This document shows, piece after piece, positions 2,895-25,842 of a stretch of DNA of 28,333 nt (positions are counted from its first letter, which is position 1; the number at the start of each line of letters is the position of its first letter). The translations under genes were made by a program, and so were the position numbers. Origin of the DNA: a virus; IMG/VR virus record IMGVR_UViG_3300010392_001226, positions 1-28,333 of that record. One strand, given 5' to 3'. The notes beneath the pieces are model-generated. The model worked only from the letters and a program-made list of their open reading frames with translations. It did no database searches and had not been told where the DNA came from.

Positions 2895-3674
2895 TCAAAA
2901 GGGCAGCTCCTGTCTGGAGCGGGGTGGCCAGAACCGGGCATCCTCCGGCGAATGTCCCGGCCGGTAGTGCGTCACCGCGAAGTGCAAGGCTCCGGCACCT
3001 TGATACGCCTCGCGGTCACGTTCGAACACGGCAGCCAGGGCCAGTGCATCCGCCGGCGACAGCCCGGCCTGTTTCGCACAGCGGATCGTGATGGCAGCCC
3101 TCGCTAAGCCGCAAGAAAACAAACGTTCCTCCGCCGCCTCCCAAGCGTCACGCTCCGGCACGCTTTCGCTTGAGGGGGGAGGGGGTGGCGCTTCCTGGTC
3201 GTTTCCTATGCGCTTCCTAGATATAGAGCGGCGCGCATCAGTTGCCGTTTGGTCTGCATCAGTTGCCGTTTGGTCTGCATCAGTTGCCGTTTGGTAACCG
3301 GCAACTGATGCCGGTTGCTCTGCCCGGCGAGCCCAGCAGAATTCCACCTGATCCCAGAAGATCACGAAGTGCAGCCGTGTCTTCCCATCAGGGCATAGCT
3401 TGCGCTGGCGATGAATCAGTCCCAGCAGCTCCAGCGCTGCGCAGGCCATCCGCACGGTTCGTTCGCCGCGGCCCAGATCACGCGCTACGGTGTCGAGGCC
3501 CGGCCAGCAGCTCCGCCCGCCGCCATAATCGTCGAGCTGCCGGAGCACGCTCTTGATCAGGGCTCCACTGCTGCTGGTGCGCTCGCTCCAGCGCACGGTC
3601 GGGATCTCGATCTCGCGTAACATGCGGAGCTGCTTCCCTCGGTTCCAGTTGATCTCTTGCTGTTGGGCTGCCAT
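2895..3674 (-). CDS. Replication initiator, lambda O-like, winged helix (259 aa)
   Basis: This is probably the phage replication initiator. Residues about 36-92 form a helix-turn-helix/winged-helix domain of the HTH_36 type (GALIKSVLRQLDDYGG...WPGLDTVARDLGRGERTVRMACAALELLGLI). A linker at 128-147 contains three copies of Asp-Gln-Thr-Ala-Thr-Asp-Ala, encoded by DNA iterons. A proline run (163-167) and a helical C-terminal domain (about 176-245) follow. As in lambda O, the N-terminal domain would bind the iterons inside the gene and the C-terminal domain would bind the helicase loader encoded next. I chose the ATG at 3674; the in-frame extension to 3746 overlaps the upstream gene. Confidence 0.7.
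   Translation of the reverse strand: MAAQQQEINWNRGKQLRMLREIEIPTVRWSERTSSSGALIKSVLRQLDDYGGGRSCWPGLDTVARDLGRGERTVRMACAALELLGLIHRQRKLCPDGKTRLHFVIFWDQVEFCWARRAEQPASVAGYQTATDADQTATDADQTATDARRSISRKRIGNDQEAPPPPPSSESVPERDAWEAAEERLFSCGLARAAITIRCAKQAGLSPADALALAAVFERDREAYQGAGALHFAVTHYRPGHSPEDARFWPPRSRQELPF
3235..3311. repeat. Iterons inside the initiator gene; candidate replication origin
   Basis: Two exact 21-bp units (3235-3255, 3256-3276) and a third that diverges at its end (3277-3297) begin GCATCAGTTGCC and are followed by an inverted 12-bp copy, GGCAACTGATGC (3300-3311). The 21-bp period keeps the reading frame. An AT-richer stretch (TTCCTAGATATAGAG, 3215-3229) lies to the left and could be the unwinding element. 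Lambdoid phages carry their origin as iterons in the middle of gene O, and the gene context here matches. Confidence 0.7.
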
Positions 3675-3700
3675 GCCGTGAGCAACTTTCTTGTGATTGG

Positions 3701-4036
3701 TTACGGTTGGGGAGGCAACTGCTCGGACAGTGCCCAGGCTTGCCACGCTTCGGTATCGCGGGCGATCGCATCGTCTGGCTGCCGGTCGTGCAGCACATAC
3801 TCGGCCTGGCTATACCAGCCGGACCGGTGCCGTTCCTTGCCGCGGGCACACAGGTGATAAGTCGTCGCCAGGCCCAGCCGGCGATAGACCACGATCTGCT
3901 CCTCGGCCCGCGGCACGTCCTTGGGTTGATCGAGGGCATCGAACTCGACGCCGTGGATTACTACACGGAGCAGGTCCGGAGCGCTTCGCAGTTGCAGCGT
4001 GATGCCGGCGGCTGGTCCGTCGAGGAAGCTGATCAT
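3701..4036 (-). CDS. Conserved hypothetical protein (111 aa)
   Basis: A 111-residue protein starting MISFLDGPAAGITLQLR, with central segments VYRRLGLATTYHLCARG and SGWYSQAEYVLHD. I recall this pattern from small proteins in planctomycete prophages but know no function. The start ATG at 4036 overlaps the TGA of the upstream gene (ATGA), and GGGAG lies nine bases upstream, so the pair is translationally coupled. The in-frame extension to 4186 is a shadow of the upstream gene. Confidence 0.7.
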   Translation of the reverse strand: MISFLDGPAAGITLQLRSAPDLLRVVIHGVEFDALDQPKDVPRAEEQIVVYRRLGLATTYHLCARGKERHRSGWYSQAEYVLHDRQPDDAIARDTEAWQAWALSEQLPPQP

Positions 4037-4425: not shown

Positions 4426-4638
4426 TCAGGCGGCCTCCGCATCACGTGACTGCTTGTCGTCTGAGTCGCTCGCCTGCTGGGCCTGGATCTTGAGCCAGAT
4501 TTCCTTGCGGTGGATGGCGACATCCTTCGGGGCGTCGATCCCCAGGCGGACCTTGTCGCCTCGAATGGCGACGACTGTGATGGTCACATCGTCGCCGATC
4601 ATGATTTGCTGATCCTTGTGTCGTGATAGAACGAGCAT
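4426..4638 (-). CDS. csrA: CsrA/RsmA-family post-transcriptional regulator (70 aa)
   Basis: A 70-residue CsrA homologue, an RNA-binding dimer that recognises GGA in hairpin loops and usually blocks or stabilises mRNAs. It starts MLVLSR with the expected Leu4 and Arg6, continues IMIGDDVTITVVAIRGDKVRLGI and has HRKEIW with Arg44, the key RNA-contacting residue. The C-terminal 15 residues are a charged tail. The start at 4638 fits the family exactly; the upstream in-frame extension is noise. A loop-exposed AGGGATC hairpin lies 45 bases upstream, and CAGGATG overlaps the start codon, so autoregulation is plausible. A phage-encoded copy could retarget host translation or control phage mRNAs. Confidence 0.95.
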   Translation of the reverse strand: MLVLSRHKDQQIMIGDDVTITVVAIRGDKVRLGIDAPKDVAIHRKEIWLKIQAQQASDSDDKQSRDAEAA

Positions 4639-4682
4639 CCTGAGTTCTTCCTTTGCTTGCGTGGTCAATCCGTTGGTAAGGC

Positions 4683-4707
4683 CGCGGCGGCGATCCCTGC
4701 CGCCGCG
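4683..4707 (-). promoter_or_regulatory. Hairpin with AGGGATC loop upstream of csrA; candidate CsrA site
   Basis: On the minus strand a perfect 9-bp GC stem (CGCGGCGGC/GCCGCCGCG) presents the 7-base loop AGGGATC. CsrA prefers A(N)GGA motifs in short hairpin loops. The site lies in the leader of the phage csrA gene, about 45 bases before its ATG, where many csrA genes are autoregulated. The hairpin is seen directly; CsrA binding is inference. Confidence 0.5.
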
Positions 4708-4772
4708 ACCGACAACTCCCTTCCCTCGGCCGGCCTCCAGCCAGCCTTTCACCAGGCGTCCGTCGCCCGGTG

Positions 4773-7945: not shown

Positions 7946-9034
7946 CTAGAACAGTTTGCGTTGCCGCGCATCGTCGCCGGCAGCCGGCAAGATCGAGGGC
8001 AACTGGCGAATGAACTTGGCCTCGACGTTCACATACGACCGCCGAGTGGTCTTTACATTGGCATGGTTCAGCGAAGAGCGGGCCAGTTCCTCGGCCTTCT
8101 TGAGTCCCAGCTCCGCCAGCTCGCAGCCATGCGTCCGCCGCCAGGCCTGCACCGACATCTGCTCCGCGGCGGGAATCCCGGCCAGCTCCTGCAGCTCGGT
8201 GTGCCAATCGTCGAAGGCCGTCTTGCAATGCGGGAACGGAATGATCCGCTTGCGTTGGCTCTGGATGCGTGAAATGGCTGTAACCGCGTCGTGATGCAAG
8301 GCGATGTTCTGGGCCTTGCTCGTCTTGGGGACGTCGTCTCGGTCGAGCTTGAGCCACCAGCCATCGGCCCGCTGTTCGATCTTGTCCCACACCAGCCGCG
8401 GGTTGATGATGGTGGCGTAGCGCTGGCCCGTGTAGAACAGCAGGCAGAGCGTCGCCTGCCACCAGGCCCCCGGCGTGATCCCGGCAATGTCCGGGCGTTC
8501 CATCTGGGCCGTCGCGGCCATCATCCGCCTTACCTGGTCGAGCGAGTAGGGAGGCTTGGGCTCGCCATCGACGGGCGGGACGTACACATACGGAGCAGCG
8601 GCGATCAGCCCCTTGCCAGGTCGCTTGGGATTTATCGACGGGCCGGTGCGATACAGGATCGCTCGGATGTAACGCAGGTGTTTGGCTTGCGTCGCTTCGC
8701 TGAGGAGTCGATCGGAGCCCCGCAGCTTGGACCGCGACCAGGTCGCCGAGCGGAGCCCATCGAGGAACATGGCCACCACGTATTCGTCGATCAGCCTCAG
8801 CGGCGGATCGTGGGTGATCAGCTTCCAATACCGGAGGGCGTCCCGGTAGGGCTTGATCGATTGCGGTTTGGTGGCATGCTGCACCAGCACCACGGGCAAG
8901 AACCAACACTCGAAGAACTGCGACAATGTCATCCGATCGGAGAGTCGAGGTCCGTCGGATTCGACCTGGGAGGGATGGTCGGGAGTGAACAGCCGCAGAT
9001 GAACCGGGGGGATTGAATCGCGAAGTTCGGACAT
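7946..9034 (-). CDS. Tyrosine-recombinase integrase (362 aa)
   Basis: A tyrosine site-specific recombinase that would integrate the phage at the tRNA-Asp-like site 630 bases upstream. The N-terminal part (about 35-170) has the SAM-like core-binding fold (SQFFECWFLPVVL...). The catalytic domain shows box I Arg205 (YTGQRYA), a lysine turn (K237 or K240 in KTSKAQNIALHH), box II Arg299, His324 (LNH in place of the usual LGH) and Tyr334 (RRSYVN). The first histidine of the H-x-x-R motif is Gln296, an uncommon substitution. Length is normal. The ATG at 9034 has only a weak ribosome site. A terminator follows the gene. Confidence 0.9.
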   Translation of the reverse strand: MSELRDSIPPVHLRLFTPDHPSQVESDGPRLSDRMTLSQFFECWFLPVVLVQHATKPQSIKPYRDALRYWKLITHDPPLRLIDEYVVAMFLDGLRSATWSRSKLRGSDRLLSEATQAKHLRYIRAILYRTGPSINPKRPGKGLIAAAPYVYVPPVDGEPKPPYSLDQVRRMMAATAQMERPDIAGITPGAWWQATLCLLFYTGQRYATIINPRLVWDKIEQRADGWWLKLDRDDVPKTSKAQNIALHHDAVTAISRIQSQRKRIIPFPHCKTAFDDWHTELQELAGIPAAEQMSVQAWRRTHGCELAELGLKKAEELARSSLNHANVKTTRRSYVNVEAKFIRQLPSILPAAGDDARQRKLF

Positions 9035-9664
9035 GGCTCAAGGTTCCACACGGCGATCGAGGTTCCCGCGCATCCGTTCGGCGATCGCGCGACTTGGCAT
9101 CCGCGGAGCTGGCCGGCATCCTTTCCACGTCATGGTGCAGGTGGCTCAAATCTAGGAGAGCAGACCTGCCATGGGAAGAAACACTAACCTGCAAACGAGA
9201 GATTGGCGAACAGTCGCCGTCACCAAATTGGGTGATGTCGGCGGTGTTGATCAGGTAGAACATGCGGCCCTCGGTGAACTGCGCAGCGCGCAGCCCGAGA
9301 CGGTTTTACAGGCGGGCCTGCAAAGCGATCGGGTCTGCGAGCAGCGCAGAAAAAACTGGACGAAGCGAACCCGGCCAAACGTCCACGTGCGGAAACGTCC
9401 GACCGATTGTGCATCCGACGCACTCGGCCGCGGCTTCGAATCGACCAGGAAGGGCCGGTGGGAAGTCGCTCAGAAGAGCGAGGCATACACATGATGTTTT
9501 TGGCGAGGTTGATTGTGCGCGCCGCCGCATCCCTGTCAAGCATCACGTGACGGCGGGGAGTGTCCACCAAAGGAACAGGCTATCGGTCGATCAAAAACGA
9601 ATAGTCATCGCCTATGATCCACACAACGGGGAGGACGTTGCCTGACAGTCACATCGGTCCACGA
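9035..9664. other. Non-coding left part of the attP region (630 bases)
   Basis: I see no convincing gene between the integrase start and the tRNA fragment. A minus-strand frame beginning at 9263 starts with protein-like codons (MFYLINTADITQFG) but loses coding character within about 30 codons. An excisionase is not evident. The stretch contains arm repeat A (9487-9498) and part of a GACAGTC/GACTGTC inverted repeat (9644-9650 with 9668-9674) at the edge of the core. Confidence 0.5.
9487..9498. repeat. Candidate integrase arm site A
   Basis: ACACATGATGTT followed by TTTGGC. The same 12 bases recur at 9777-9788, followed after three bases by TTTTTGGC, on the far side of the tRNA-like core. Paired arm sites flanking the crossover region are typical of lambda-type attP. 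Confidence 0.5.
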
Positions 9665-9711
9665 TCGGACTGTCGATCCGAAGGTTGCGGGTTCGAGCCC
9701 CGTCACCCTCG
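9665..9711 (+). other. attP core: 3' part of a tRNA-Asp(GTC)-like sequence
   Basis: This 47-base segment folds as the 3' part of a tRNA. Anticodon stem TCGGA/TCCGA encloses the 7-base loop CTGTCGA (anticodon GTC, Asp); a 5-base variable loop AGGTT, T-stem GCGGG/CCCGT with loop TTCGAGC, acceptor strand CACCCTC and discriminator G follow. No matching 5' acceptor strand (GAGGGTG) or D-arm precedes it, so it is a fragment, not a functional tRNA gene. Integrases of this class use such 3' halves as attachment cores. Integration would restore a complete tRNA-Asp at one junction. Confidence 0.75.
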
Positions 9712-9714
9712 CTT

Positions 9715-9830
9715 GAGTGATCCTGACCGGGATCAAGGAGTAGTGAGCCGCGATGGCGTCGCGGTAACTTCTTTACACACATGATGTTCAGTTTTTGGCA
9801 GCTCTGCTGTTTGTCCCGGTCGGATCACTC
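9715..9830. repeat. Large inverted repeat next to the att core
   Basis: GAGTGATCCTGACCGGGA (9715-9732) pairs with TCCCGGTCGGATCACTC (9814-9830), 17 bp with one bulged base. The 81 bases between contain two more hairpins (CCGCGA/TCGCGG, 9748-9764; CAGC/GCTG, 9799-9809) and arm repeat B, so the whole could fold as a branched RNA or act as a DNA structure at attP. No gene is visible inside. Confidence 0.55.
9777..9788. repeat. Candidate integrase arm site B
   Basis: ACACATGATGTT, followed after CAG by TTTTTGGC; matches arm site A at 9487-9498 in the same orientation. It lies 66 bases right of the tRNA-like core. If both arms are integrase sites, attP is intact and the DNA is not integrated here. 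Confidence 0.5.
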
Positions 9831-9868: not shown

Positions 9869-9999
9869 CTGCTCAGGTAGGCGGGATGGGGCATGAGGCC
9901 CGACGCCGCAATGCGGTGAAACTGTATGCGATGCGGCAGATCATCGCCGGCAGTGTCCGGAGCGCGAAAAGAATTTCCAAATTTTTTTCGGAGTACACC

Positions 10000-10899
10000 A
10001 TGCGACCGCAGTTCTTCGCCGTCTGGCGCGCCCAGCCGATCGGCCAACAGATCTACTTCGCCACCCTGGCCATGTGTGCCGGGATCTTCATTGCCTGCGG
10101 ATCGGGGGCCACGACGACCTACGTCGATAGCAAAGGGAATCCACTTTCCGAGGAGCAGGTCGCCGCCAAGAAGGCCGAAGACCGCCGGCAGATCGATCTG
10201 GAAATTTCAGCCAAGAGCAGCGGCGAGAAGTACTGCAAGAAGTTCCTCAAGTATCCGCTCGATTCGAGCTTCAACTGGGACACGGCCGTCAGTCACAATA
10301 GTGACTGGAGTTTGACCAGCGTCACCGGTACGGTGCAGGCCCCCAATTCCTTCGGCGCCAAGCTGACTCACGAGTGGGGCGTGATCATGCAGCGGGAAGG
10401 TGATTCCTGGAAATTGCTCATGTGCTCGATCGGGAATGACACCGTCTACCAAGACGCCGACGCTATGGCCGCCGCCAAGGGCGATCGCCCAACTCCCTCC
10501 CCACCTGCAGTGACGCCGGCAGCGACGCCTGATCTGGCGTCGAGCTCCGGCAGCTCGGCCCCCGGCCAGGCCGAGGCGGATGCCGCCGCAGCCCGGGCGG
10601 CCGAGATCGATCGCCAGCGTGAATTGGCGGAGGAAGCCGAGCGGCAAGAAGCACAGCGGGTCGCCGAGGCCCGGCGAAAGGAAGCGGCCAAGGCCGCGGC
10701 GATCGAAGCCGCCAAGACACGGATCTGGAAAACGGCCGACGGCCAATACGAGATCGAGGCAACCTTCGTCACGGCGATCGGCAACATCGTCAAGCTGCAG
10801 CACACCGATACACAAGACGTGATCGAGGTGCCCATGGAAAAGCTCTCACTGGCCGATCAGGACTTCATCAAGCATCGCCGCTGGAATGAGGCGGAGTGA
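10000..10899 (+). CDS. Membrane-anchored SHD1-domain protein (299 aa)
   Basis: A plus-strand gene unlike its minus-strand neighbours. Residues 18-33 form a hydrophobic anchor (IYFATLAMCAGIFIAC) that could be a signal anchor or, with Cys33, a lipoprotein signal with a weak lipobox. A folded domain follows (about 70-150, FNWDTAV...VTGTVQAPNSFGAKLTHEWGV), then a Pro/Ala/Ser linker, an Ala/Glu/Arg-rich coiled coil (191-239) and a C-terminal SHD1 domain (241-296, WKTADGQYEIEATFV...VIEVPMEKLSLADQDFI). SHD1 is a small SH3-like barrel common in planctomycete envelope proteins. I chose the ATG at 10000 (GGAG seven bases upstream). It may be a lysogenic-conversion gene acting at the host surface; that is inference. 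Confidence 0.8.
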   Translation: MRPQFFAVWRAQPIGQQIYFATLAMCAGIFIACGSGATTTYVDSKGNPLSEEQVAAKKAEDRRQIDLEISAKSSGEKYCKKFLKYPLDSSFNWDTAVSHNSDWSLTSVTGTVQAPNSFGAKLTHEWGVIMQREGDSWKLLMCSIGNDTVYQDADAMAAAKGDRPTPSPPAVTPAATPDLASSSGSSAPGQAEADAAAARAAEIDRQRELAEEAERQEAQRVAEARRKEAAKAAAIEAAKTRIWKTADGQYEIEATFVTAIGNIVKLQHTDTQDVIEVPMEKLSLADQDFIKHRRWNEAE

Positions 10900-11727: not shown

Positions 11728-13140
11728 CTAAGCCTTCAGGACGCGCCGCATTTTCAGGCGGCCAAAGCTGGTCGTGATCGCGTTGCCGCCGCCGCTGGCC
11801 AGGGTGCTGAAGCGGATGCGCTCCCCCTCGGCCAGGTCGATGTGAGTCAGCAGCGGAAAGGCGTGCCGAATGCCGGCGGCCACGATCGGATTGAAAGCCC
11901 AGTCATAATCCGAGAATGACCCGCCGCCGCTGCCACCCTTCTCGATATAGAAGCTGGCCTCAAAGGGAGCCGTGCCGCTGGAATAGAGCAGGTGATCGAC
12001 CGCGTCCACGCTCAGCCGCATCGCCTTGTTGGCAGTGAAGATCCCCGCGCTGTAGGTCATGTCCAGCGGACCGACCGAACTGGTCGCTGCCCAATTGGTG
12101 ATCGCCCCGGCGCTGGCCGAGCTGTGAGAGTAGAACGCTTCGTAGTCCTGCCCCGGCGGACGAATCACGAAGACCCGGCTGTTGGCGTCCCAGTCCATCA
12201 CGGTGTAGACGCCGGCTGCGATCGGGATCTGATGCGGGTTGATCACCCGCACATCATCGTAGTTGATGAAGGACGTGGTGCCGTTCCAGTTGTAGGCGTA
12301 GGCGTGCAGCTTGAGATCGCCGCGGCGGCGGGGGCTGGACAGCGGGAAGCCGAACCGGATCGGCGTGACTCGGCCGATCCCCGGCGTGGGATTGACCGCG
12401 TCGGTATAGTCGCAGGCCGGAATCTGTTCGCTGGTGAAACAGATGATGTTGGAGCAGCTCGCCGAGCCCAGCCTCACGATCGCCATTCGATCCTGGTAAA
12501 TCTGTGAGGGGGAGAAGTTCGTGGGGAAGCGGGCGTTGTCTTCGCTCTCCCAGAGAATCTCACCGGTGGCCGGCCCGTGCCAGCTCGTCATGGCCCAATG
12601 TGGAATCGCTCCGTAGCTGTGACAGAAGTGCATCGCCGGATGCCGCACTCGCAGCGGCACGTAGAACAGCCCCTGCACCGCGACCCGACCCACCTTCCCC
12701 ACGGGAATGTTTTCCACCGCGAAGCCCCAGGCGGGCCAGTTGTGGTTGCTGAGGATCGACGTTTCGCTGCTGGAGTTGTCGGAGACTTCGCCCGGGTGGT
12801 AGTCCTGCGAACTGAACACGCCACTGTCGGCGTTGGCATGCTCCGGATAGTCAAAGGCGATCTGCTTGGTCTGGCGGGCGTAGTTCTTTTTCTGGGTGGC
12901 GTTGTCGCTGCCGTCTACGTCGAAGAACGAATTGCCCAACCGGGTCGCCATGCCCTTGAGGGCCGGGCTGCCCGTGGTGTTTTTCCAGCGCACCCAGAAG
13001 AACGGCTCGTACTGTCCGGTCGGCACCTCCCCCGCCGGCACATGTCCCGGCGACGCCAGGTCTACGACGGCGTTATAGAAGCCCGCGGGAATTCCCTTGA
13101 GCTTGTCGCCGGGTCGGATTTTCTTTTGCCATTCGCTCAT
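11728..13140 (-). CDS. Tail tip or fibre protein (470 aa)
   Basis: A 470-residue beta-rich protein at the distal end of the tail operon. The N-terminus (RPGDKLKGIPAGFYNAVVDLA) is a motif I recall at the start of planctophage tail-tip proteins. The middle is rich in aromatic and Asn/Ser residues, and the C-terminal 130 residues look like a jelly-roll domain (AGIFTANKAMRLSVDAVDHL...), suggesting host-receptor contact. Its ATG overlaps the upstream TGA by one base (TGATG). The precise role is inferred from position and composition. Confidence 0.55.
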   Translation of the reverse strand: MSEWQKKIRPGDKLKGIPAGFYNAVVDLASPGHVPAGEVPTGQYEPFFWVRWKNTTGSPALKGMATRLGNSFFDVDGSDNATQKKNYARQTKQIAFDYPEHANADSGVFSSQDYHPGEVSDNSSSETSILSNHNWPAWGFAVENIPVGKVGRVAVQGLFYVPLRVRHPAMHFCHSYGAIPHWAMTSWHGPATGEILWESEDNARFPTNFSPSQIYQDRMAIVRLGSASCSNIICFTSEQIPACDYTDAVNPTPGIGRVTPIRFGFPLSSPRRRGDLKLHAYAYNWNGTTSFINYDDVRVINPHQIPIAAGVYTVMDWDANSRVFVIRPPGQDYEAFYSHSSASAGAITNWAATSSVGPLDMTYSAGIFTANKAMRLSVDAVDHLLYSSGTAPFEASFYIEKGGSGGGSFSDYDWAFNPIVAAGIRHAFPLLTHIDLAEGERIRFSTLASGGGNAITTSFGRLKMRRVLKA

Positions 13141-13973
13141 CAGGTGATCGCCGGCCAGAATGCGTTGAAGTCGGTTTCGTCGGCGATCTGCGACACGTAC
13201 ACCCGCGACGGCACCGGGGCCGAAGTGTTCGTGTCAAGCTCGACCGTATCCTCGATCCACAGATGTTCCTGACCGTACTTGACGCCAACCTTGATGTCCC
13301 CCTTCATCATTCCCGTGACGGTCTCGGAGCCGGAACCGTAGAACGTGACCGGCCAATCGCCGCGGCCCCGCTGGCTGCCGCTGGCTCCGAGGAACAGGAT
13401 CTCGCGAGGGTTGAATCCGCGGAACGCCATCGAGTTGGTTTTGCCGGTTGCCCGCGAAAGGTCTTTGATCCAGTTGGGGTTTCGCACGATGTTGTCGGGA
13501 ATGTAGTGCGTCTCCTGGAATCGCAAGGTGGGAATCACCACCTCGACCCCTTTGGCCTCGGTTCCGTTCCAGCCGATCGCCAGGCTGTTGCTCGGCTTGC
13601 TGACGCCGGAGTCGTCGTCGTAGTAACGCTGGCTGATCGCATGGGTACGGGTCGCCGTGCCGCCGGTCGTGTCGAAGCTGACTTCGTAGTCGCCCGTCTC
13701 TTTCTCTTCGCGAGCGTCGGGGTGATCGGGGTTGCGGTAGCGGGCCTGCACCGTCCAAAAGCGTTGGGTGTCGCTGCGGTCTTCCTCGCGAGGGCTGACC
13801 GAAGTCAGCACCATGTTGGCCTCGGTATCGGGGAGCAACGCACGCACGGCGACTTGGACCGCATTGAACGAATCAGACAGCGAAGCGATCACGCAGAACG
13901 TGCGGTCGAAGCTGTTCTTCGCATTGCGGGCGATCTCGCCGGACTGGCTCTTGTTGATCTCGAAGATTTCCAC
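13140..13973 (-). CDS. Conserved tail-region structural protein (277 aa)
   Basis: A 277-residue protein of a type I associate with planctomycete phage tail modules. The N-terminal segment SFDRTFCVIASLSDSFNAVQVAVRALLP and the FWTVQARYRNP motif (about 72-82) are its most conserved-looking parts. A proline/aspartate-rich strand-forming region and a C-terminal segment on strand-swap scale (YGQEHLWIEDTVEL) follow. No enzymatic motif is seen. The start is a GTG at 13973, just downstream of the previous stop. It is likely a baseplate or tail-tip component. Confidence 0.55.
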   Translation of the reverse strand: MEIFEINKSQSGEIARNAKNSFDRTFCVIASLSDSFNAVQVAVRALLPDTEANMVLTSVSPREEDRSDTQRFWTVQARYRNPDHPDAREEKETGDYEVSFDTTGGTATRTHAISQRYYDDDSGVSKPSNSLAIGWNGTEAKGVEVVIPTLRFQETHYIPDNIVRNPNWIKDLSRATGKTNSMAFRGFNPREILFLGASGSQRGRGDWPVTFYGSGSETVTGMMKGDIKVGVKYGQEHLWIEDTVELDTNTSAPVPSRVYVSQIADETDFNAFWPAIT

Positions 13974-13977
13974 GGCG

Positions 13978-15120
13978 TTAGATTCTCACGTAGGTTCGCT
14001 GATACGGATCGCTCGGCTTGTTGTCGGTCGTGATCGTCACCAGTGAGCCGATCAACTGCACCGCTCCCTGGCCGCTGAAGGGAGTCACATTGAGCGTGCC
14101 GATCGTGCCGGCCGTGGTCCGCTTGGTCGCATCGAGCGTGCCGCTGTCGTGATTGAGCGTGGTGATGTTGCCGGCCGTCCAGGTGAGCGTGCCGCTGTCG
14201 AGATGGTGCGTCGTGGTGGTGCCGGTCCCCTCGGTGCGGAGATTGGCGGCGGCCTGCGTGATCGTGGTGATGGCACTGGTCCAGGCGAGCACTCCACTGC
14301 CGCCGCGCATGTCGAGGGTGGTCAAGCTCAGGCCACTGCCGCTGCGGATCGCTCCGCCGATGTTCCGCCAGGTGGCCACGGTCGCGGTCTCGTTAGCCAG
14401 GGCCGCGACTGCGACCGAGGTGCCGGCCTGCGTGGTGAGGGTGGCGATGTTGCTGCCGGTCAGGTTCAGGCCGAACGGACGCGAGCCGCTGCCGCTGCCG
14501 GTGCGGGTGATATTGGGGCTGATGTTGGCCGAACCGATGTGGAGATACGCCGCTCCGCTGCCGGCGAAGGTGAGGGAATCGGGATCGATCTTCAGCGGAC
14601 CGGTGTTGCTGCCGATCAGCCCGTCGTAACCCTCTTCGACCACGAAGGCATTGACTGCCACGCCGCTCTGATCCAGCCCGCTGCTGATCTTCTGGGCTCC
14701 GGCCGGAATGGTCACATCGTCGCCGGCCACCGGGATCTGCGTCATCGTGATGTAGCCGTCAGCCTTCGTGTCGGGATCGGTGCCGTCGCTCAAGCGAACA
14801 TAGACGGTGCTGTACCCCAGCGTGTCGTTGTCGGCGTAGTCCCACTCCCCCGCGGCCAGGCTGCCGGCAGTTCCTTCGGTGGCACTGGCCGAACTGCTAT
14901 TGATCTGCACCTTGCCCGGAGCACTGATGCCGGGATCGCCGCCGGCTGTCAGTTCCATGTAATACTCACTGGTTCCGCTGCCGGACGCCGTCCACTTGAA
15001 CGTGCCGGAAAGCACCAGCTTTTGGGGCTGCCAGTTGTTGGCTGCAGAGTAGTCGCCCACCGTGGTCGATTCGCCGCTGATGACGGTCGTGCCGCTGTAG
15101 ATTTTGTTGAACGCTACCAT
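13978..15120 (-). CDS. Beta-solenoid-like tail protein (380 aa)
   Basis: A 380-residue protein, very rich in Thr, Gly and Ser. From about residue 180 it shows irregular short repeats of strand-plus-turn form (such as GSNIATLTTQAGTSVAVAAL and SGTLTWTAGNITTLNHDSGT), as in beta-solenoid fibres. The N-terminal 170 residues look like a separate beta-sandwich. It follows the tape measure by a few bases, so a tail-tip or side-fibre role is likely. Not recognised by name. Confidence 0.55.
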   Translation of the reverse strand: MVAFNKIYSGTTVISGESTTVGDYSAANNWQPQKLVLSGTFKWTASGSGTSEYYMELTAGGDPGISAPGKVQINSSSASATEGTAGSLAAGEWDYADNDTLGYSTVYVRLSDGTDPDTKADGYITMTQIPVAGDDVTIPAGAQKISSGLDQSGVAVNAFVVEEGYDGLIGSNTGPLKIDPDSLTFAGSGAAYLHIGSANISPNITRTGSGSGSRPFGLNLTGSNIATLTTQAGTSVAVAALANETATVATWRNIGGAIRSGSGLSLTTLDMRGGSGVLAWTSAITTITQAAANLRTEGTGTTTTHHLDSGTLTWTAGNITTLNHDSGTLDATKRTTAGTIGTLNVTPFSGQGAVQLIGSLVTITTDNKPSDPYQRTYVRI

Positions 15121-15124
15121 GATG

Positions 15125-16861
15125 CTATGTTCCTGCCGTGACCGGGATGCCGCCGCCGCTGCGTTCCATCATCTGGAACAAGGCGGAGTGCTCCCGCAGT
15201 GCTTGCGTTTGGGCCTTGAGTTCTGCGAATTGCTTTTCGAGCAGGACCACTTCCTCGCTCTTGCCGCCGCTCACCAGCAGGGCCGCGGCTGCCGTGTTCG
15301 TGGCGCCGCGGGTGGCGATCTCGGCCACGGCATCAGCCGCCCCGCCGCCGGGGACGTACACGTCGCCCGCCCCTTCGACTGCCGCCTTGATCGCTTCGGC
15401 TGCCTCTTGCTGGGCTTCGGCCGCTTCCTCCTGGATCGCCGCCACTTCCCTGAGCGTGTCCGACAAGCCCCCCTCGGCGTTGCCTGCTGCGACCCTGCCG
15501 GCCGGTTCTTCCTCGATCACCGTGTTCGCTCGATCGACTGCGATCCGCAACGCTTTCTCGGCATCGTCGGCCTGCTGCTCAATGACTTTGCGGCTAACCG
15601 CCAGCGCCTTGTCCATGGCGGCCGAGTCCACCCCCACCACGTACTGGATTCCCGGAATGGCCATGATCGCTTCGGTAATGCTGGCCATCGCATCGAAGGC
15701 GATCAGTTGAATGTTGGTCCAGACGCGAGCCCAAAGAGCCTGGAGTCCCAGGACGGCGATCTCTCCGGCCGCTTCCAGGTCGCCGCTCTGCAGTGCCCCG
15801 ATGATGCCGCCGAACGTCTCGCCGAAGATCGAGCCCAGGCCGTCGAGGATGCCGCTGGCCTTGACGACCCACACGATCAGGCCGGCGACGGCGACGGTGG
15901 CCGCGGTGATCGCTACGACCATCAGGCCGATCGGTGAGGCGATGAAGGCAACCGCAGAGCCCAGGGCCGAGACCGCCACGCCGGCCGCGGCAATGATGCC
16001 GCCCAGGGTGGTCAGGGCCACGCCGGCCGCTCCGACGGCTGCGACCACAGCCACGATGCCGACCACGAGCCGCTGGTTGTTCTTGATCCACTCGATCGCC
16101 ATGCCGATGAACGGCCGCACGGTTTCGACCAGGGCGGTAAATGACGGAATGACCGCGGCAGCAATCTCGCGGCTGAGCCCCAGCACGGACTGCTTTCCGC
16201 GGTTCCATGCGTCGGTAAAGTCGGCCGCCGCTTGGGCCGCCTCGGTACTCATTACGATGCCCAGCTCCTCGGCTTCGTCGGTGAGGGCTCGGATGCCCGC
16301 GGCCCCGCCATTGATCAGGGGGAGCAGCATCGTGCCGCTGCGTCCGAATAACTGCTGAGCCAATGCCGCTCGGGTCGTGGCGTCTGCGACATTCGACAGC
16401 GCATCGGCGATCGCGACAAATTGTTCCTCGGGAGAAAGCCCGATCAGATCGTCGACGCTGAGGCCCACACGGGCCAGGGCGTCGGCGGCCGACTTGCTGC
16501 CGTTCTGCGCATCGGCAATGGCCCGCTGCATGCGCTTGATGCCGGTCTCCAGTTCTTCGATGGAACTGCCCGATTGTTCGGCGGCGAACTTCAGCGCCGA
16601 GAGTGCTTCGACCGCCACGCCAGTACGGGCCGCCATCTTGTTGAGCTGATCGCCGGCAGCCGCGAACTCGAACACCGCAGCGGTGAGCGGAGCGAGCACC
16701 GACGCGGCAGCGGCAGACAGGCCGGCCCCGATGCCGGCGATGCCAGCCCCGAACGATTTGAGCTTCGACCCGGCGGCCTTGAGCCCGGCCTCGAACTGCG
16801 GCCCCAGCTTCGTGCCGATCTCGACAAAGGCCCGGCCCATGCGTACTGCGGATGCTGACAT
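15125..16861 (-). CDS. Tail tape measure protein (578 aa)
   Basis: This protein sets tail length and is threaded through the tail tube. It begins with an Ala/Gly-rich amphipathic region, followed by the TP901-type core (about 60-240: MAARTGVAVEALSALKFAAEQSGSSIEELETGIKRMQ...LSPEEQFVAIADAL...LFGRSGTMLLPLI). Strongly hydrophobic segments follow (about 270-345), then a helical, Glu/Ala-rich C-terminus. At 578 residues it is short, predicting a tail of roughly 85-90 nm at about 1.5 angstrom per residue. The ATG at 16861 has GGAGG seven bases upstream. Confidence 0.9.
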   Translation of the reverse strand: MSASAVRMGRAFVEIGTKLGPQFEAGLKAAGSKLKSFGAGIAGIGAGLSAAAASVLAPLTAAVFEFAAAGDQLNKMAARTGVAVEALSALKFAAEQSGSSIEELETGIKRMQRAIADAQNGSKSAADALARVGLSVDDLIGLSPEEQFVAIADALSNVADATTRAALAQQLFGRSGTMLLPLINGGAAGIRALTDEAEELGIVMSTEAAQAAADFTDAWNRGKQSVLGLSREIAAAVIPSFTALVETVRPFIGMAIEWIKNNQRLVVGIVAVVAAVGAAGVALTTLGGIIAAAGVAVSALGSAVAFIASPIGLMVVAITAATVAVAGLIVWVVKASGILDGLGSIFGETFGGIIGALQSGDLEAAGEIAVLGLQALWARVWTNIQLIAFDAMASITEAIMAIPGIQYVVGVDSAAMDKALAVSRKVIEQQADDAEKALRIAVDRANTVIEEEPAGRVAAGNAEGGLSDTLREVAAIQEEAAEAQQEAAEAIKAAVEGAGDVYVPGGGAADAVAEIATRGATNTAAAALLVSGGKSEEVVLLEKQFAELKAQTQALREHSALFQMMERSGGGIPVTAGT

Positions 16862-16864
16862 GGT

Positions 16865-17500
16865 CTAGCCTCCTCTCGATTGGAATTGAGACGGGAGGTG
16901 TGCCCCTGTCGCTGCGAGGGCCAGGCTCATGGTAGGCCGTGGCTTTATTACGCCCTGGGAGCGACGCTTCTTTCCTTTCCAGCGAGCGAACGCTTTGTCG
17001 CTGACGATCCGCCACACGCCAGAATCGAGAACGCGATAGACCCATACAGTGCCGCCGCGCTCCAGTCTCTCTGGCACGTTGTTCGCCTTGGCTCCGTTGA
17101 CGTGAACCGGCCCGGCAACCAGCGTTCCCATGCGAAACTCGTACGACGCCCTGGTGTCGTAGGCGTATTGGATATTGCGAATTGAGATGCTGTCCTGCTT
17201 GCCCTTGTAGTTTCTGACGTGGCTATAGGGCGGCGACCCCGCGGGGCTGACCTTGGCCCGTCGCTTGGCAAGAGTCTTGAGGGCACGTGCCCGCTTCTTT
17301 GGGTCGGCGTCTCGCGTACGCTCGATCATCGCAGTGGTAGGGGCCAGGATCTTGATCGATTTCCGGGCGTGCTGGCGAACGATGGCCCCGTAGCGAGTCA
17401 GTGGCTTGATCTGCTCCTTTTCAACCCACTTCAAGAGTTCCTTCTCGTTGTCGAGAAAGAGCCTTTCGTGATTCATTTTCATGGTCAATGCGAGGGGCAC
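16865..17500 (-). CDS. HK97 gp10-like tail completion protein (211 aa)
   Basis: A 211-residue basic protein with YGAIVRQHARKSI, SPAGSPPYSHVRNYKGKQDSI and GPVHVNGAKANNVPERLERGG, then a C-terminal RPTMSLALAATGAHLP. This order (helix, 'G-x-PP-x-S-H' turn, 'P-x-x-LE-x-GG', then 'RP-x-M-x-x-A') matches gp10-like tail completion or minor tail proteins. I chose the GTG at 17500, with GGAG seven bases upstream; ATGs at 17482 and 17476 are alternatives. It lies between the tail chaperones and the tape measure, whereas in HK97-type phages it usually precedes the tail tube. Confidence 0.6.
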   Translation of the reverse strand: MPLALTMKMNHERLFLDNEKELLKWVEKEQIKPLTRYGAIVRQHARKSIKILAPTTAMIERTRDADPKKRARALKTLAKRRAKVSPAGSPPYSHVRNYKGKQDSISIRNIQYAYDTRASYEFRMGTLVAGPVHVNGAKANNVPERLERGGTVWVYRVLDSGVWRIVSDKAFARWKGKKRRSQGVIKPRPTMSLALAATGAHLPSQFQSRGG

Positions 17501-17532
17501 TGCGTTGCTCCGCTTCTATTCCGGTGCCTAAT

Positions 17533-17841
17533 TCACTGGCCACTGATCCATCCGAATTGACTGCAGGCCTGCTTGAAATCGCCCCACGTGCCATCGGCCT
17601 TGCTCGCCTTCGCGGTCGGTTCTTTGGTCGGGGCCTTGCCTTGTTCCCAGGCGTTGAAGTCCATCGGCTCGAAGGGCTGCTTCCGTTTCTTCGGGTCGCG
17701 GTGGCAGTTGGCCAGCAATGCCATCGCGTGGCTCTGCCGTGCCCACCGTTCCGCCAACGCTCCGCCGTGCATCCAGCACAACTCTCGAAAGGTCTTGTCG
17801 TACGGGTCGGTCGGAATCACTCCGGCCATTTCCCAGATCAA
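17533..17841 (-). CDS. Tail assembly chaperone, gpT-like partner (102 aa)
   Basis: A 102-residue protein in the position of lambda gpT, after the gpG-like gene and ahead of the tape measure. Its frame is -1 relative to the upstream gene and overlaps that gene's stop in TTGA, so it starts at a TTG (17841) or at the ATG at 17829. The C-terminal WGDFKQACSQFGWISG and central FRELCWMHGGALAERWARQ segments are helical. I see no standard X-XXY-YYZ slippery heptamer in the last 60 bases of the upstream gene. Confidence 0.6.
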   Translation of the reverse strand: MIWEMAGVIPTDPYDKTFRELCWMHGGALAERWARQSHAMALLANCHRDPKKRKQPFEPMDFNAWEQGKAPTKEPTAKASKADGTWGDFKQACSQFGWISGQ

Positions 17842-18251
17842 TCGCTCAACGCTTCGCTGATCAGCTGGTCGAACTTCTTGTCGACCGCTCCGCTGTCGAG
17901 GTACTCGACCAGCTTGCTCGTCCCCCGCCTGGTCAGTTCCACTTGCTTGGCCAGCGTCCGTTCGATCGTCTCGCTCGCTTCGGGGCGTGTGCTGCGGATA
18001 AAATCCGTGATAGCAACACGCAAGCCCTCCTGAGCGGCCCGAATATCCTCCGGCCCCATGTCATCGACCAACGCTTCCACGTTCTCGCCGCGGGCCTCCA
18101 GCAACAGGCCGATCGCCTTGCCGACTTTCTCCAGGTCGAACAGCAGCTCGGTGACGGACTTGGTCACGTCGGTGCCCAGCAGGTCCACGATCTTGGCTTC
18201 CCGCAATTTGCGGGCGAGGCCGAACGTGATCCGAAACGTGTAATCGCTCAT
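17838..18251 (-). CDS. Tail assembly chaperone, gpG-like (137 aa)
   Basis: A 137-residue helical protein that lies between the tail tube and tape-measure genes, the fixed place of tail chaperones, which coat the tape measure during assembly. It begins with two strands (DYTFRITFGLARKLREAK) and continues as charged helices (ELLFDLEKVGKAIGLLLEARGENVEALVDDM). The ATG overlaps the upstream stop (ATGA). Assignment rests mainly on position, size and the -1-frame partner downstream. Confidence 0.65.
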   Translation of the reverse strand: MSDYTFRITFGLARKLREAKIVDLLGTDVTKSVTELLFDLEKVGKAIGLLLEARGENVEALVDDMGPEDIRAAQEGLRVAITDFIRSTRPEASETIERTLAKQVELTRRGTSKLVEYLDSGAVDKKFDQLISEALSD

Positions 18252-18451
18252 GGTTTGATAATCAGCCCGCCGTGCTGCTCCCTCTGCCTGAACTCATCGA
18301 TCCACTCCACGAGTGTTTGAATGTCACGCACCTTGTTGCCGACGATCTTGTCGGGCTCGAACTGGTAGGCCCGCACTCCGACCCGGAGCGCTTCCAGTAC
18401 GCGGAGGCGATCGGCTTGAATCCGTGCGATGGTGTCTGCCGAAACTTGCAC
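18248..18451 (-). CDS. Small hypothetical tail-region protein (67 aa)
   Basis: A 67-residue, mostly helical protein (IQADRLRVLEALRVGVRAYQFEPDKIVGNKVRDIQTLVEWIDEFRQR). The GTG start at 18451 shares its G with the tail-tube TAG stop, and its own stop overlaps the next ATG, so it sits tightly in the operon. The longer open frame to 18916 is a shadow of the tail-tube gene. Function unknown; perhaps a tail assembly accessory. Confidence 0.6.
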   Translation of the reverse strand: MQVSADTIARIQADRLRVLEALRVGVRAYQFEPDKIVGNKVRDIQTLVEWIDEFRQREQHGGLIIKP

Positions 18452-18909
18452 TAGACCGTGTACCAATCCGGGGTGACTTCTGCCGACGATTCGACGAACC
18501 GCGACACTTTGAGCGAAACGTCGATCATCATCGCTTCGGTCAGGTTTTCTGACCGGCTGAAGTTGAACACGCCGACGCCGGCCCGCAGACCTTGCGATCC
18601 GCTGGTCGTAATATCTCCATCCATGAAGGCGTACTGGCGGATCGTCTTGGCAAAGTAGTCCGTTCGCACGCGGGTCATGTCGGCGTCGCTGGTGTCGTAC
18701 ACCATCTGGAAATCGATCGAGCCGTCGGCCAGCACGGGCACACGCTGCACGAAGCCGCCGCCGCCGCGGGTGGTGACGTCGAACTCGCCACGCTCCAGAT
18801 TGAGGGTGAGGTCTTTGACGTTCTCCACTTCGGCCCAGGTCGGGCTCGCATTGGTCCCCGTGTTGGCGTAAGTCTTGCCGTCGAGGCCGAGTGTAAATCC
18901 GGTTGCCAT
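18451..18909 (-). CDS. Major tail tube protein (152 aa)
   Basis: A 152-residue protein matching small siphophage tail-tube proteins. MATGFTLGLDGKTYANTG begins the beta-barrel, ENVKDLTLNLERGEFDVTTRGGGGFVQRVPVLADGSIDFQMVYD is the typical 'V-x-D-L-x-L-x-x-x-x-x-x-D-x-T-x-R' strand set, and the C-terminal region covers VSLKVSRFVESSAEVTPDWYTV. It would form stacked hexamers. The ATG at 18909 has GAGGG about eight bases upstream. It precedes the chaperone pair as expected. Confidence 0.75.
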   Translation of the reverse strand: MATGFTLGLDGKTYANTGTNASPTWAEVENVKDLTLNLERGEFDVTTRGGGGFVQRVPVLADGSIDFQMVYDTSDADMTRVRTDYFAKTIRQYAFMDGDITTSGSQGLRAGVGVFNFSRSENLTEAMMIDVSLKVSRFVESSAEVTPDWYTV

Positions 18910-18941
18910 GGGTCAAGCCCTCTATGCTTTTGAACAGGAGT

Positions 18942-18958
18942 GGACGAAGGAAACGAAG
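18942..18958. repeat. 17-bp intergenic repeat, copy 2
   Basis: Identical to 7108-7124 (GGACGAAGGAAACGAAG), again just after the stop of one minus-strand gene and before the start of the next. Flanking bases are similar too (GAACAGGAGT against GAAACAAGAGG). Confidence 0.5.
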
Positions 18959-18969
18959 GTTTCCGCGGA

Positions 18970-19512
18970 CTATGCCGACCGGCCCAGGATCGTGATGTTG
19001 TGGATGGTGTCACCGCCGGAGGCCGCCAGCTTGAGCAGGTGATTGCTGGTATCGGCGACCGCGTAGGCGGGATCGGTCGGGTTGAACAGGAACAGCACGC
19101 CGCCGGGATCGAGCGTGACCGCCGCGTCATCGTCGCCGCCGAAGGGGCTGTTCCAGGCGGCCGTGGTTCCGTCGCCACCGACGATCAGGTTGCCGGCTGA
19201 GCCCGATTCGTTCTCGATCAGCAGGGCCACGATCTCGGCGAAGCTGACGGTATTCCCCAGCACGTCGGTCGTGGCGTCGAAGTTGGCCAGGTCAAACAGG
19301 TCGAGTGTCACGCTGTTGCCGCTGGTGATCGCCTGGTCGACCTCGAAGTAGAGCCGGTCCGCCTTGTTGGCCGTGGTGCCGCTGCTGAACAGCGAACCGC
19401 GGGAGTACCCCTGGCCCACCCGATCCAGGGCCACGGTGCGACCCTGCACGGTCTTCTGCAATTTGGCGAACAAATCCACGTTGATCAGGAATTCGCTGAG
19501 TGAAGTAGCCAT
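18970..19512 (-). CDS. Conserved beta-sandwich virion protein (180 aa)
   Basis: A 180-residue protein of a pattern I recall from many phage structural modules: an N-terminal helix region, then ANKADRLYFEVDQAITSGNSVTLDLFDL, FAEIVALLIENESGSAGNLIVGGDGT, a GPFGD-like SPFGGDDDAAVTLDPGGVLFL and a final strand set ending NITILGRSA. This is a beta-sandwich found between connector and tail-tube genes; its role may be tail or decoration. The ATG at 19512 overlaps the upstream TAA by one base (TAATG). The longer open frame upstream is noise. Confidence 0.6.
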   Translation of the reverse strand: MATSLSEFLINVDLFAKLQKTVQGRTVALDRVGQGYSRGSLFSSGTTANKADRLYFEVDQAITSGNSVTLDLFDLANFDATTDVLGNTVSFAEIVALLIENESGSAGNLIVGGDGTTAAWNSPFGGDDDAAVTLDPGGVLFLFNPTDPAYAVADTSNHLLKLAASGGDTIHNITILGRSA

Positions 19513-19952
19513 TAGCTGATTGCCCTTACGGTGGTGAGTTCGGCAGTAAAGGCCGCGACGAACTTGTCGTCGCTGGCATGTTCGATGGAGTACTCGGCAG
19601 CCGGGGTGATCTTGCCGCACACCGCCAGCTCGGCGAACGTGCTGCCATCGATCGAGTCGGCGATCGCCTCCGTCAGATCCATCAGGTCGTCGTAGTCGCT
19701 GAGCGTGCTGGCGGCGGGGAGCTTTCGCTCGACCACCACATCGATCAGCAGCACCTCATTACTATGCTTGCGCGTGATCCGTTCCCGCCGCCGCGGTGCG
19801 GCACAGATCAGGCTGACGTAGATCCCTGTATCGCCGTCCCCCCGATCGCGCACGAAGTAGTACTTCCGCTCGACCGTCAGCGGCACGCCGAAGCTGCCGG
19901 TGGCGATCGCGGTGATCATGGCGTCGGCCACGGTGATCAGCGTGCTGCTCAT
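19512..19952 (-). CDS. Tail terminator-like protein (146 aa)
   Basis: A 146-residue protein with an N-terminal helix (TLITVADAMITAIATGSF), strands (VERKYYFVRDRGDGDTGIYVSLICA, VLLIDVVVERKL), a helix (YDDLMDLTEAIADSIDG) and final strands (KFVAAFTAELTTVRA). Helix, sheet, 'V-x-V-V-x-R' strand, 'D-x-L-x-x-x-x-x-I' helix and closing strand resemble gpU/tail-terminator folds. It overlaps both neighbours by one to four bases and lies at the expected place after the connector. Confidence 0.5.
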   Translation of the reverse strand: MSSTLITVADAMITAIATGSFGVPLTVERKYYFVRDRGDGDTGIYVSLICAAPRRRERITRKHSNEVLLIDVVVERKLPAASTLSDYDDLMDLTEAIADSIDGSTFAELAVCGKITPAAEYSIEHASDDKFVAAFTAELTTVRAIS

Positions 19953-20326
19953 GGCCGGCCCACCTCTTGGCTATGCACACGCAGGATCACGTGCGAGCGA
20001 TCGCTCCACTCCCAGACCGGATCGTTGCTGCTCAGCCCCACCACCTGGTACACATAGCCGGCGGCATCGGTGATCGTGTCTTTGTGATCCGGGACGATCG
20101 GCGTGCTGCCGTCGACCAGGTCCGCCGCGGCGATCAGCCAGTCGCGGCGTTCGACCCGTTCGCTGACACCCTGCTCATCGAGCTGCTCGGTATCCCGTTG
20201 CCCTTTGCCGGCGGTGAGGCTGACACTGAGCGACGTGCCTGGCCGCGCGTAAGTGATCGCCACGCCACCGTGTGATTTCACGATGCCGATCAGATCCGCG
20301 GCGGCTTGGGCAAATACGTCGGTCAT
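19949..20326 (-). CDS. Head-tail connector-like protein (125 aa)
   Basis: A 125-residue protein with an N-terminal helix (FAQAAADLIGIVKSHG) and then beta strands (VAITYARPGTSLSVSLTAG, RDWLIAAADLVDG, HKDTITDAAGYVYQVVGLS, WEWSDRSHVILRVHSQEVG). The 'K-D-x-I-x-D-x-x-G-x-x-Y-x-V' followed by 'Y/H-x-I-x-x' strand pattern is typical of head-tail joining (stopper or gpFII-like) proteins. The ATG at 20326 is chosen; the extension to 20380 runs through an intergenic repeat. It has no clear Shine-Dalgarno. Confidence 0.5.
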   Translation of the reverse strand: MTDVFAQAAADLIGIVKSHGGVAITYARPGTSLSVSLTAGKGQRDTEQLDEQGVSERVERRDWLIAAADLVDGSTPIVPDHKDTITDAAGYVYQVVGLSSNDPVWEWSDRSHVILRVHSQEVGRP

Positions 20327-20332
20327 GGGTTC

Positions 20333-20392
20333 AAGTCGGAGAGGGGACGGGGAAGTCGGACATCTGCGATCTGAGATCACAAATCCGAGATC
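20333..20392. repeat. Intergenic AAGTCGG-type repeat and GATCTGAGATC words
   Basis: The gap between the decoration gene and the connector gene begins AAGTCGGAGAGGGG (also in 7721-7734) and continues ACGGGGAAGTCGG, which matches the other arm of the 7719-7856 pair. It then has GCGATCT...AGATCGC (20366-20394 region). The repeat occupies the place where the ribosome site of the connector gene would be. Confidence 0.5.
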
Positions 20393-20394
20393 GC

Positions 20395-21372
20395 TTAGTT
20401 GTCGTCATCCATCGCGATTGCGTAGAACTCGAACACACGCACGTCGCAGGTCGTGTCGTTGCTGGTCTTCTCGGCATGCACCAACAGCTTGAACGGGCCG
20501 GTGGCCGCACTGATGTCGAGCGTCTTGCTGGCACCGGTGGTGCCGTCCATCACACGGACGCCGTTGATGTAGACCTTGCAGTTGGTCAGATCGCGGCAGT
20601 CAAACACCACGTCGAACGGCGTGTTGTCGACGGCGTCGATCGTGGAGTCGGCGGCGGCGTTCTCGGTTGTGCCGTCGTCGGACTCGACCAGGATCGAAAG
20701 GGCAGAGCCGTCAAGGTGAATGAACAGCGATTCGGTGATCGAATCGGCATCGGTCGCATGGGTTGCATTGGCGGGGCCGATGTTGATGTCCAGCGCGGCA
20801 TCGTCGCCGATGTCGTAAATCGCAAACCGGCCGAAGGCCACGAACGGCACCGTCACCGGGATCGAGGCCTGCGTCAGCAGGTCCGTCTTGCCGGCCTCGG
20901 CGGTGGCACTCATGGTGAGCTTGGCCCCGCCAGGGACCACCGTCACGGTCGAGGTGCCGGAGGTCTGGACGTCGATATTGTCGGCGACGCCGTACTGAAG
21001 CATGCCGATCGTCGGCTGCGGCAGCACATTGAGATCGACCCAGCCGGTGGTGGCCGTGCTGGTCGCGTCTTTGGTTGCCACGCCCAGATAGAAGTCGGCA
21101 CCGGCTGCCGCCTTGACCGGAGTGGCCGAACCGGCCGAGCGGTCCCAGTAAATCTTCTGACCTTTGACCCACGAGAGGCCGCTGGCCTTGGTGACTTCGT
21201 GCTTCCCTTCGGTCTCCAGCGTGATCTTGTCTCCGCTGGCAGCGGCGTCGAGGCCACGCTTGACAGCGGCCCGGCCGTCAGCCGTGAGGAGCACTTCACC
21301 CGAAGCGACGGCCGCCGGGGCGGTGATCGTTGCTTCACATCGCGGGTCACGATAAATCGCTTCAGCAGCCAT
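20395..21372 (-). CDS. Capsid decoration protein: DUF2190-like domain plus lectin-like domain (325 aa)
   Basis: The first ~115 residues resemble DUF2190/capsid-cement proteins, small beta-barrels that bind the major capsid protein: IYRDPRCEATITAPAAVASGEVLL, ASGDKITLETEGKHEVTKASGLSWVKGQKIYWD and ADFYLGVATKDATSTATTGWVDL. The remaining ~210 residues look like a concanavalin/LamG-type jelly roll (FGRFAIYDIGDDAALDINIG, LFIHLDGSALSILVESDDGT, FDVVFDCRDLTNCKVYINGVRV, VRVFEFYAIAMD). It probably displays a sugar-binding or surface-contact domain on the head. The ATG at 21372 has AAGGAA upstream. Confidence 0.65.
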   Translation of the reverse strand: MAAEAIYRDPRCEATITAPAAVASGEVLLTADGRAAVKRGLDAAASGDKITLETEGKHEVTKASGLSWVKGQKIYWDRSAGSATPVKAAAGADFYLGVATKDATSTATTGWVDLNVLPQPTIGMLQYGVADNIDVQTSGTSTVTVVPGGAKLTMSATAEAGKTDLLTQASIPVTVPFVAFGRFAIYDIGDDAALDINIGPANATHATDADSITESLFIHLDGSALSILVESDDGTTENAAADSTIDAVDNTPFDVVFDCRDLTNCKVYINGVRVMDGTTGASKTLDISAATGPFKLLVHAEKTSNDTTCDVRVFEFYAIAMDDDN

Positions 21373-21460
21373 GGAACAGGTTCCTTATCAGTTGGAAGTT
21401 GGTTTGCCGATTCGCCGGCTGTGGTGTTTGGCTTGGTAAGGTTTGGTAGCCGCCGCCGCG

Positions 21461-21733
21461 TTACTGGGGAGCGGAGAGATCGTCGGAGTCGGCCGAAGCC
21501 GCGTCATCCTCCGGCGCAGGATCTTGCTCGGACCCGTCGCCGCCGGTGGTGCAGGCCACGAGCCAGCCCACGCTGACCAGGCTTGCCAGGTCGCCGGCGG
21601 GGATCTCCCCCTCGATCACCGTGCGGCCGGCAGTGAACTTCAGCCCCTCGACATTCACGTCGCGCGTGAAGCGATAGCCGGGGGTGCCATCCTTGGCCGG
21701 TTGGGCCGGCGTTGTTTTTTTCTTGGTCGCCAT
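21461..21733 (-). CDS. Small head-region protein (90 aa)
   Basis: A 90-residue protein with a Lys-rich start (ATKKKTTPAQPAKDG), a short fold (YRFTRDVNVEGLKFTAGRTVIEGEIPAGDLASLVSVGWLV, about 20-60) and an acidic disordered tail. Small proteins of this shape occur between capsid and connector genes in many phages; a head-completion or capsid-accessory role is possible. The ATG at 21733 has GGAGAG nine bases upstream; the longer open frame is a shadow. Confidence 0.6.
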   Translation of the reverse strand: MATKKKTTPAQPAKDGTPGYRFTRDVNVEGLKFTAGRTVIEGEIPAGDLASLVSVGWLVACTTGGDGSEQDPAPEDDAASADSDDLSAPQ

Positions 21734-21822
21734 GGCGAACGTCTCTCCGTAGCTGCGTTGGGTTTCCGTATGACAAAAAGGGGCGATCGAGTGCCGCCCG
21801 ATCGGGCGGCACTGCAGGCGGC

Positions 21823-25576: not shown

Positions 25577-25591
25577 TGGGAACGTGATCCG

Positions 25592-25786: not shown

Positions 25787-25842
25787 ACCCCGATGTTTCG
25801 GGCCGGCCTGGTGGAAGTCAGCAGCGCCACGGGACGAAGTTC

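Follow-up and report, generated by a model that had tools for sequence, protein, structure and literature searches.

The window analysed here is the whole of IMG/VR record IMGVR_UViG_3300010392_001226 (28,333 bp), a linear record in which genes are cut at both ends. Nearly all of its recognisable genes lie on the minus strand (Table 1) and, read from the right end, they encode the terminase large subunit, the portal, the protease and major head protein and the head decoration protein, followed by the major tail protein, the tape measure protein, further tail-region genes down to position 11728 and several small genes. Beyond the latter are located a plus-strand gene for an SHD1-domain protein, the att site, the integrase gene and an early region specifying an AAA ATPase, a CsrA-like regulator and an O-like replication protein. 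The ORF matching both the head maturation protease and the major head protein families (838 aa) represents either a fused protein or a protein with a long in-frame start extension. A CsrA-like regulator is also present in seven related phage contigs. The SHD1 protein has no relatives in named phages, and its N-terminal part has relatives in two Phycisphaerae genomes, with neighbouring genes that differ between the two; its gene, positioned beside the att site, is possibly a cargo or moron gene.

Table 1. Coordinates of the features discussed in the text (positions within the 28,333-bp window)
Feature	Coordinates	Strand	Remarks
Replication initiation O-like protein	2895..3746	minus	early region
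CsrA-like regulator	4426..4752	minus	early region
Tyrosine integrase	7946..9034	minus	362 aa; PF00589, phrog_1
Left flanking repeat ACACATGATGTT	9487..9498	plus	integrase side; 165 nt from core
attP core, 3' half of tRNA-Asp(GTC)	9664..9712	plus	49-52 nt identity to intact genes
Anticodon stem-loop TCGGA-CTGTCGA-TCCGA	9665..9681	plus	read from the sequence
Right flanking repeat ACACATGATGTT	9777..9788	plus	late-operon side; ~62 nt from core
SHD1-domain protein	9886..10899	plus	between att and late operon; PF03983, phrog_13160; probable start 10000
Late operon	11728..28299	minus	
Tail tape measure protein	15125..16861	minus	late operon
ORF matching head maturation protease and major head protein families	21823..24339	minus	
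Portal protein	24080..25576	minus	
Terminase large subunit	26164..28299	minus	PF20454, phrog_38; frame open at the right end of the record

The half tRNA-Asp gene and its intact counterparts

The initial annotation had interpreted the 9487-9788 region as an apparently intact attP in the middle of the phage gene map, centred on a tRNA-Asp(GTC)-like 3' fragment (9665-9711) with no 5' half beside it. The fragment was borne out and is in fact slightly longer, with identity to intact tRNA-Asp genes extending from 9664 to 9712 and, with some hosts, to 9715; it thus begins with the 5' strand of the anticodon stem and ends one or two bases past the discriminator base. ARAGORN detected no complete tRNA in the window and hence no intact tRNA-Asp with the same 3' end at the other end of the left element, an arrangement that would have spoken against an attP. 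The Rfam tRNA model matches positions 9657-9704 with 21.2 bits, below the gathering score, and lacks most of the D-arm; agreement with the tRNA in the 27 bases 5' of TCGGA is limited to 11 positions.

Intact planctomycete genes for tRNA-Asp(GTC) that have precisely the 3' end seen in the core, the existence of which followed from the initial reading, were indeed found. The core is identical over 49-52 nt to eight intact tRNA-Asp genes, and an exact search with a 44-nt string from the fragment, run on the GTDB representative genomes, returned four contigs, all from MAGs of Planctomycetota (three labelled Phycisphaeraceae), each of which carries an intact tRNA-Asp(GTC) according to ARAGORN. Exact matches to the core occur in two more genomes of the class, whereas in others one to three positions differ; the matching intact genes are those of Planctomycetota, mostly Phycisphaerae. 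The sub-threshold Rfam score might be taken to indicate a chance tRNA-like sequence without function; such an origin is refuted, and its probability negligible, because 44 nt match real tRNA-Asp genes exactly. The core therefore consists of the 3' part of a host tRNA, complete to its end and lacking the 5' part.

The integrase and the flanking repeats

As originally proposed, the att site is bordered by the integrase gene on one side and by the tail end of the late operon on the other. The integrase gene is separated from the core by 630 bp and lies 5' of the half tRNA. Its product is a tyrosine integrase (PF00589) in which an alignment showed residues R205, K237, R299 and Y334 to be conserved. 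An AlphaFold2 model (mean pLDDT 78, from a shallow alignment of nine sequences) comprises a core-binding and a catalytic domain, and its best matches in a fold search were Xer, Tn1549 Int, the integron integrase and lambda Int. The first ~35 residues of the model are disordered, the fold beginning at the core-binding domain, and an in-frame stop is positioned two codons 5' of the ATG; an N-terminal arm-binding domain, which is present in lambda Int, is therefore not supported, and the window integrase appears, from its predicted structure, to be without one.

The 12-bp direct repeat reported on both sides of the core was confirmed as an exact pair (ACACATGATGTT), with no further copy in the window. 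The T-run and GGC noted after each repeat were likewise recovered, in that TTTTTGGC occurs 3' of both copies, preceded by CAG at the right copy. The chance of an exact 12-mer straddling the core is ~0.002 (0.21% of first-order Markov sequences of the window's composition), and repeated sites in both flanks are a feature of lambda-like attP regions. The repeats are nevertheless only putative integrase arm sites, as the predicted integrase lacks an N-terminal domain for arm binding. As each repeat includes the palindrome ACAT-G-ATGT, it might, speculatively, suit dimer binding, and on the basis of the modelled integrase the repeats may bind a protein other than the integrase. One could envisage a family of arm-less tyrosine integrases in planctomycete phages, acting at the tRNA-Asp anticodon loop with a dimeric helper protein on palindromic 12-bp repeats in place of arm binding; we regard this as a tentative and rather doubtful proposal.

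No relative of the integrase was detected in named phages, nor any integrase of this kind in the four MAGs having the exact tRNA, and the rest of the class and phylum yielded only distant relatives (26-30% identical). The genomes searched contain no prophage with the window's integrase and hence no attL/attR pair, and single-protein scans of IMG/VR identified no close relatives of the integrase, the terminase or the AAA ATPase. The nearest integrase relative (30% identical; genome G023, L027:8529-10484) adjoins two tRNA-Met-like predictions, one of them doubtful, and has no arm repeat in common with the window; this locus is possibly another att site.

Continuity of the phage map across the att site

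Phage DNA is present on both sides of the core, with early genes to the left and the tail-to-terminase genes to the right. A comparison of tetranucleotides gave a value of 0.163 between left and right, compared to 0.171 between two right-hand segments and at least 0.20 for other contigs, and composition is thus the same on both sides. This argues against two unrelated elements that abut, the left one ending at 9711 in an attR scar and the right one being the remnant of a different phage, as do the exact 12-bp repeat that straddles the core, the narrowness of the interval from 9716 to the late genes, with little space for host DNA, and the co-occurrence of CsrA-type early genes with this terminase type in relatives. 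The SHD1 gene by the site would be compatible with such a junction, since it has a domain common in planctomycete hosts and relatives of the N-terminal part of its product occur in chromosomal contigs; taken together, the evidence leaves a junction of this kind very little probability.

Terminase relatives were found in 59 of 392 sampled Planctomycetota genomes, at no more than 47% identity. In relatives identified via the terminase, CsrA is encoded some kilobases upstream of the terminase gene, on the same strand and the same contig, and two of these (L048 and L076) also have, further upstream, an integrase-like gene with weak similarity to that of the window (E ~4e-4). The L048 protein has no Pfam match and no tRNA fragments were found near its gene, and near that of L076 there are only weak sub-threshold matches. 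The position of CsrA and integrase genes upstream of the terminase in relatives indicates that the left part of the window precedes the terminase on a circular map, and the record would accordingly correspond to this circle cut open near the terminase, att being the closed junction. In two prophages (G747 and G146) an integrase is located on the tail side of the late genes.

Since the tail end, att and the integrase are contiguous, the DNA is joined at att, and from this closed junction we infer a free, circular or packaged state. The initial annotation had suggested the same, or else a plasmid-like prophage, and had looked to circularity or terminal redundancy of the contig as a check; this was not obtained, as the linear 28,333-bp record has no terminal direct repeat. 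A free circle, a concatemer, packaged DNA, tandem prophages and mis-assembly via the 50-bp core are all possible because the record is not circular and both of its ends cut genes. A plasmid-like prophage is without specific support, no plasmid partition system having been identified in the window; the sole plasmid hint is a small HicB/Arc-like protein (10907-11218) with weak partition-family matches.

Other elements carrying a half tRNA-Asp

The exact half tRNA was not present in any other IMG/VR record, and the search was then performed with a relaxed pattern. A tRNA-Asp(GTC) 3' half without the 5' half was observed in other planctomycete phage or MAG contigs (L162, L164, L165 and L145/L166). 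The start of the half tRNA in five separate elements (the window, L162, L164, L165 and L145) falls at the same position of the anticodon stem to within two bases, and the bases upstream do not match the tRNA. The integrase of the L164 record, the sole one compared, is unrelated to that of the window. In L165, which has tape-measure similarity to the window, the gene that follows the half tRNA encodes a short-chain dehydrogenase, the arrangement expected of an attR.

Record IMGVR_UViG_3300033145_001968 (39,215 bp) appears to be circular because it has a 114-bp terminal direct repeat. Its terminase is 37% identical to that of the window and, as in the window, its half tRNA-Asp adjoins an integrase gene and is flanked by repeats (of 22 bp in this case). 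In contrast, its integrase is unrelated to that of the window by BLASTP and is encoded on the 3' side of the half tRNA, so that att lies between int and the terminase rather than between the tail genes and int.

These elements bear on two further explanations of the closed junction. According to the first, contigs holding the attL and attR of a prophage were fused via their shared 50-bp core, in which case the attP sequence would be right and a free state not implied. Short-read assembly may produce a false join at an exact repeat of 50 bp, but large assembly k-mers would resolve a repeat of this length, and in other records the half tRNAs occur beside host genes or within an apparently circular phage, which is the expected pattern; we consider a false join improbable. 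According to the second, the window covers the internal junction between prophages of the same or a closely related phage integrated head to tail, which also has the structure of an attP. Arrays at one tRNA gene, in which each member has its own fragment and integrase, are known (PMC4383910) and would be compatible with the window taken alone, but the record is devoid of host DNA, such arrays are rarer than free phage and the related record with terminal repeats looks free, which makes tandem prophages a slightly weaker candidate still. The intact host tRNA-Asp genes, the uniform composition, the gene order in relatives and the apparently circular relative thus support the initial interpretation. 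Points that count against it are the linear record with genes cut at both ends and no terminal repeats, the failure to find an attL/attR pair in the genomes searched, the predicted lack of an arm-binding domain and the position of the integrase gene, 630 bp away and 5' of the half tRNA. On balance, the 9487-9788 region is very probably the intact attP of a tailed, temperate phage that infects Planctomycetota, probably Phycisphaerae.

Through the att site, a viral contig that is otherwise anonymous can be assigned to a host group and to a precise position of insertion; the site also shows that the virus is temperate. Furthermore, several planctomycete elements appear to share the tRNA-Asp position, which is therefore a candidate site for integration vectors in bacteria for which few genetic tools exist. 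The mechanism itself is ordinary and well known; the interest of the site resides in the host assignment and in an insertion point common to planctomycete phages.

Proposed integration and comparison with known systems

The first bases of the core that are identical to the host genes are those of the 5' strand of the anticodon stem, the standard location for crossover in the anticodon loop; attP sites of this anticodon-loop type (type A) belong to tRNA-integrating phages and islands (Islander, PMC4383910; reportedly also Williams 2002). The anticodon loop is a known crossover subsite of tRNA-integrating elements (PMC4383910, PMC8371274), accounting for ~2,083 of 3,919 islands in Islander (PMC4383910), and a 7-nt loop between the stem strands fits the overlap and core-site layout of many tyrosine integrases (PMC8371274). 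The stem-loop of the window, judged by its layout, would supply two integrase sites of the core type, separated by a 7-bp overlap. Integration may be envisaged as follows: the phage carries the terminal 49-52 nt of the host tRNA-Asp(GTC) gene as a copy of its own, and the tyrosine integrase would recombine this copy with the host gene, the cut most likely falling around the 7-nt anticodon loop CTGTCGA, with the stem supplying two inverted core sites. The host 5' part would thereby be joined to the phage-borne 3' part, restoring the tRNA on the side of the SHD1 gene and late operon, and the old host 3' half would be displaced to the integrase end. The DNA of the record would be a circle, a concatemer or a packaged molecule, opened near the terminase gene.

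In common with a type A attP (PMC4383910), the window has the 3' half of a tRNA, with identity from the anticodon stem to the end of the gene, a tyrosine integrase nearby and, as proposed here, restoration of the tRNA upon integration; it is distinguished by its use of a tRNA-Asp(GTC) of Planctomycetota and by the lack of an integrated copy among the genomes searched. The order late genes, att, int and early genes and the presence of repeats in both flanks are shared with lambda, the attB of which, unlike the tRNA-Asp target of the window, is not a tRNA gene (PMC4880445). A lambda-like 7-bp overlap with inverted core sites is likely for the window; int and the late genes are on the same strand, unlike in lambda. 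Arm-less tyrosine integrases, such as that of mycobacteriophage Brujita, were reportedly described by Lunt and Hatfull in 2016 (cited in PMC7194413). Brujita-type systems have an integrase composed of core-binding and catalytic domains only, like the one predicted here, with attP inside the repressor gene and arm-type sites absent, whereas the attP of the window contains a half tRNA with a 12-bp repeat on either side. A Brujita-type arm-less system was rejected for the window, where the core is a half tRNA and no repressor gene was recognised at the site. Similarly, tRNA-dependent lysogeny, which involves a short core that does not restore the tRNA together with a phage tRNA of the same type (PMC10865867), was discounted, as the core of the window restores the whole 3' part of the tRNA and the record is without a phage tRNA.

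Contig ends next to the terminase gene

Among the 63 terminase relatives with a contig end within 10 kb upstream of the gene, 18 have that end no more than 250 bp from it. A p-value calculated for this clustering presupposes uniformly distributed ends and independent contigs and, as some of the contigs are close relatives, is not to be relied upon as it stands. In several related contigs the sequence stops precisely two bases beyond the motif CCCCTCTGCGTCGAYTC. These ends point to a fixed end of the cos type, located a short distance upstream of the terminase gene in related phages, which fits a lambda-like virion order. The right end of the record itself was not accepted as a cos end, as it cuts the start of the terminase frame. 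In twelve related contigs the end is situated ~80-220 bp upstream of the terminase gene.
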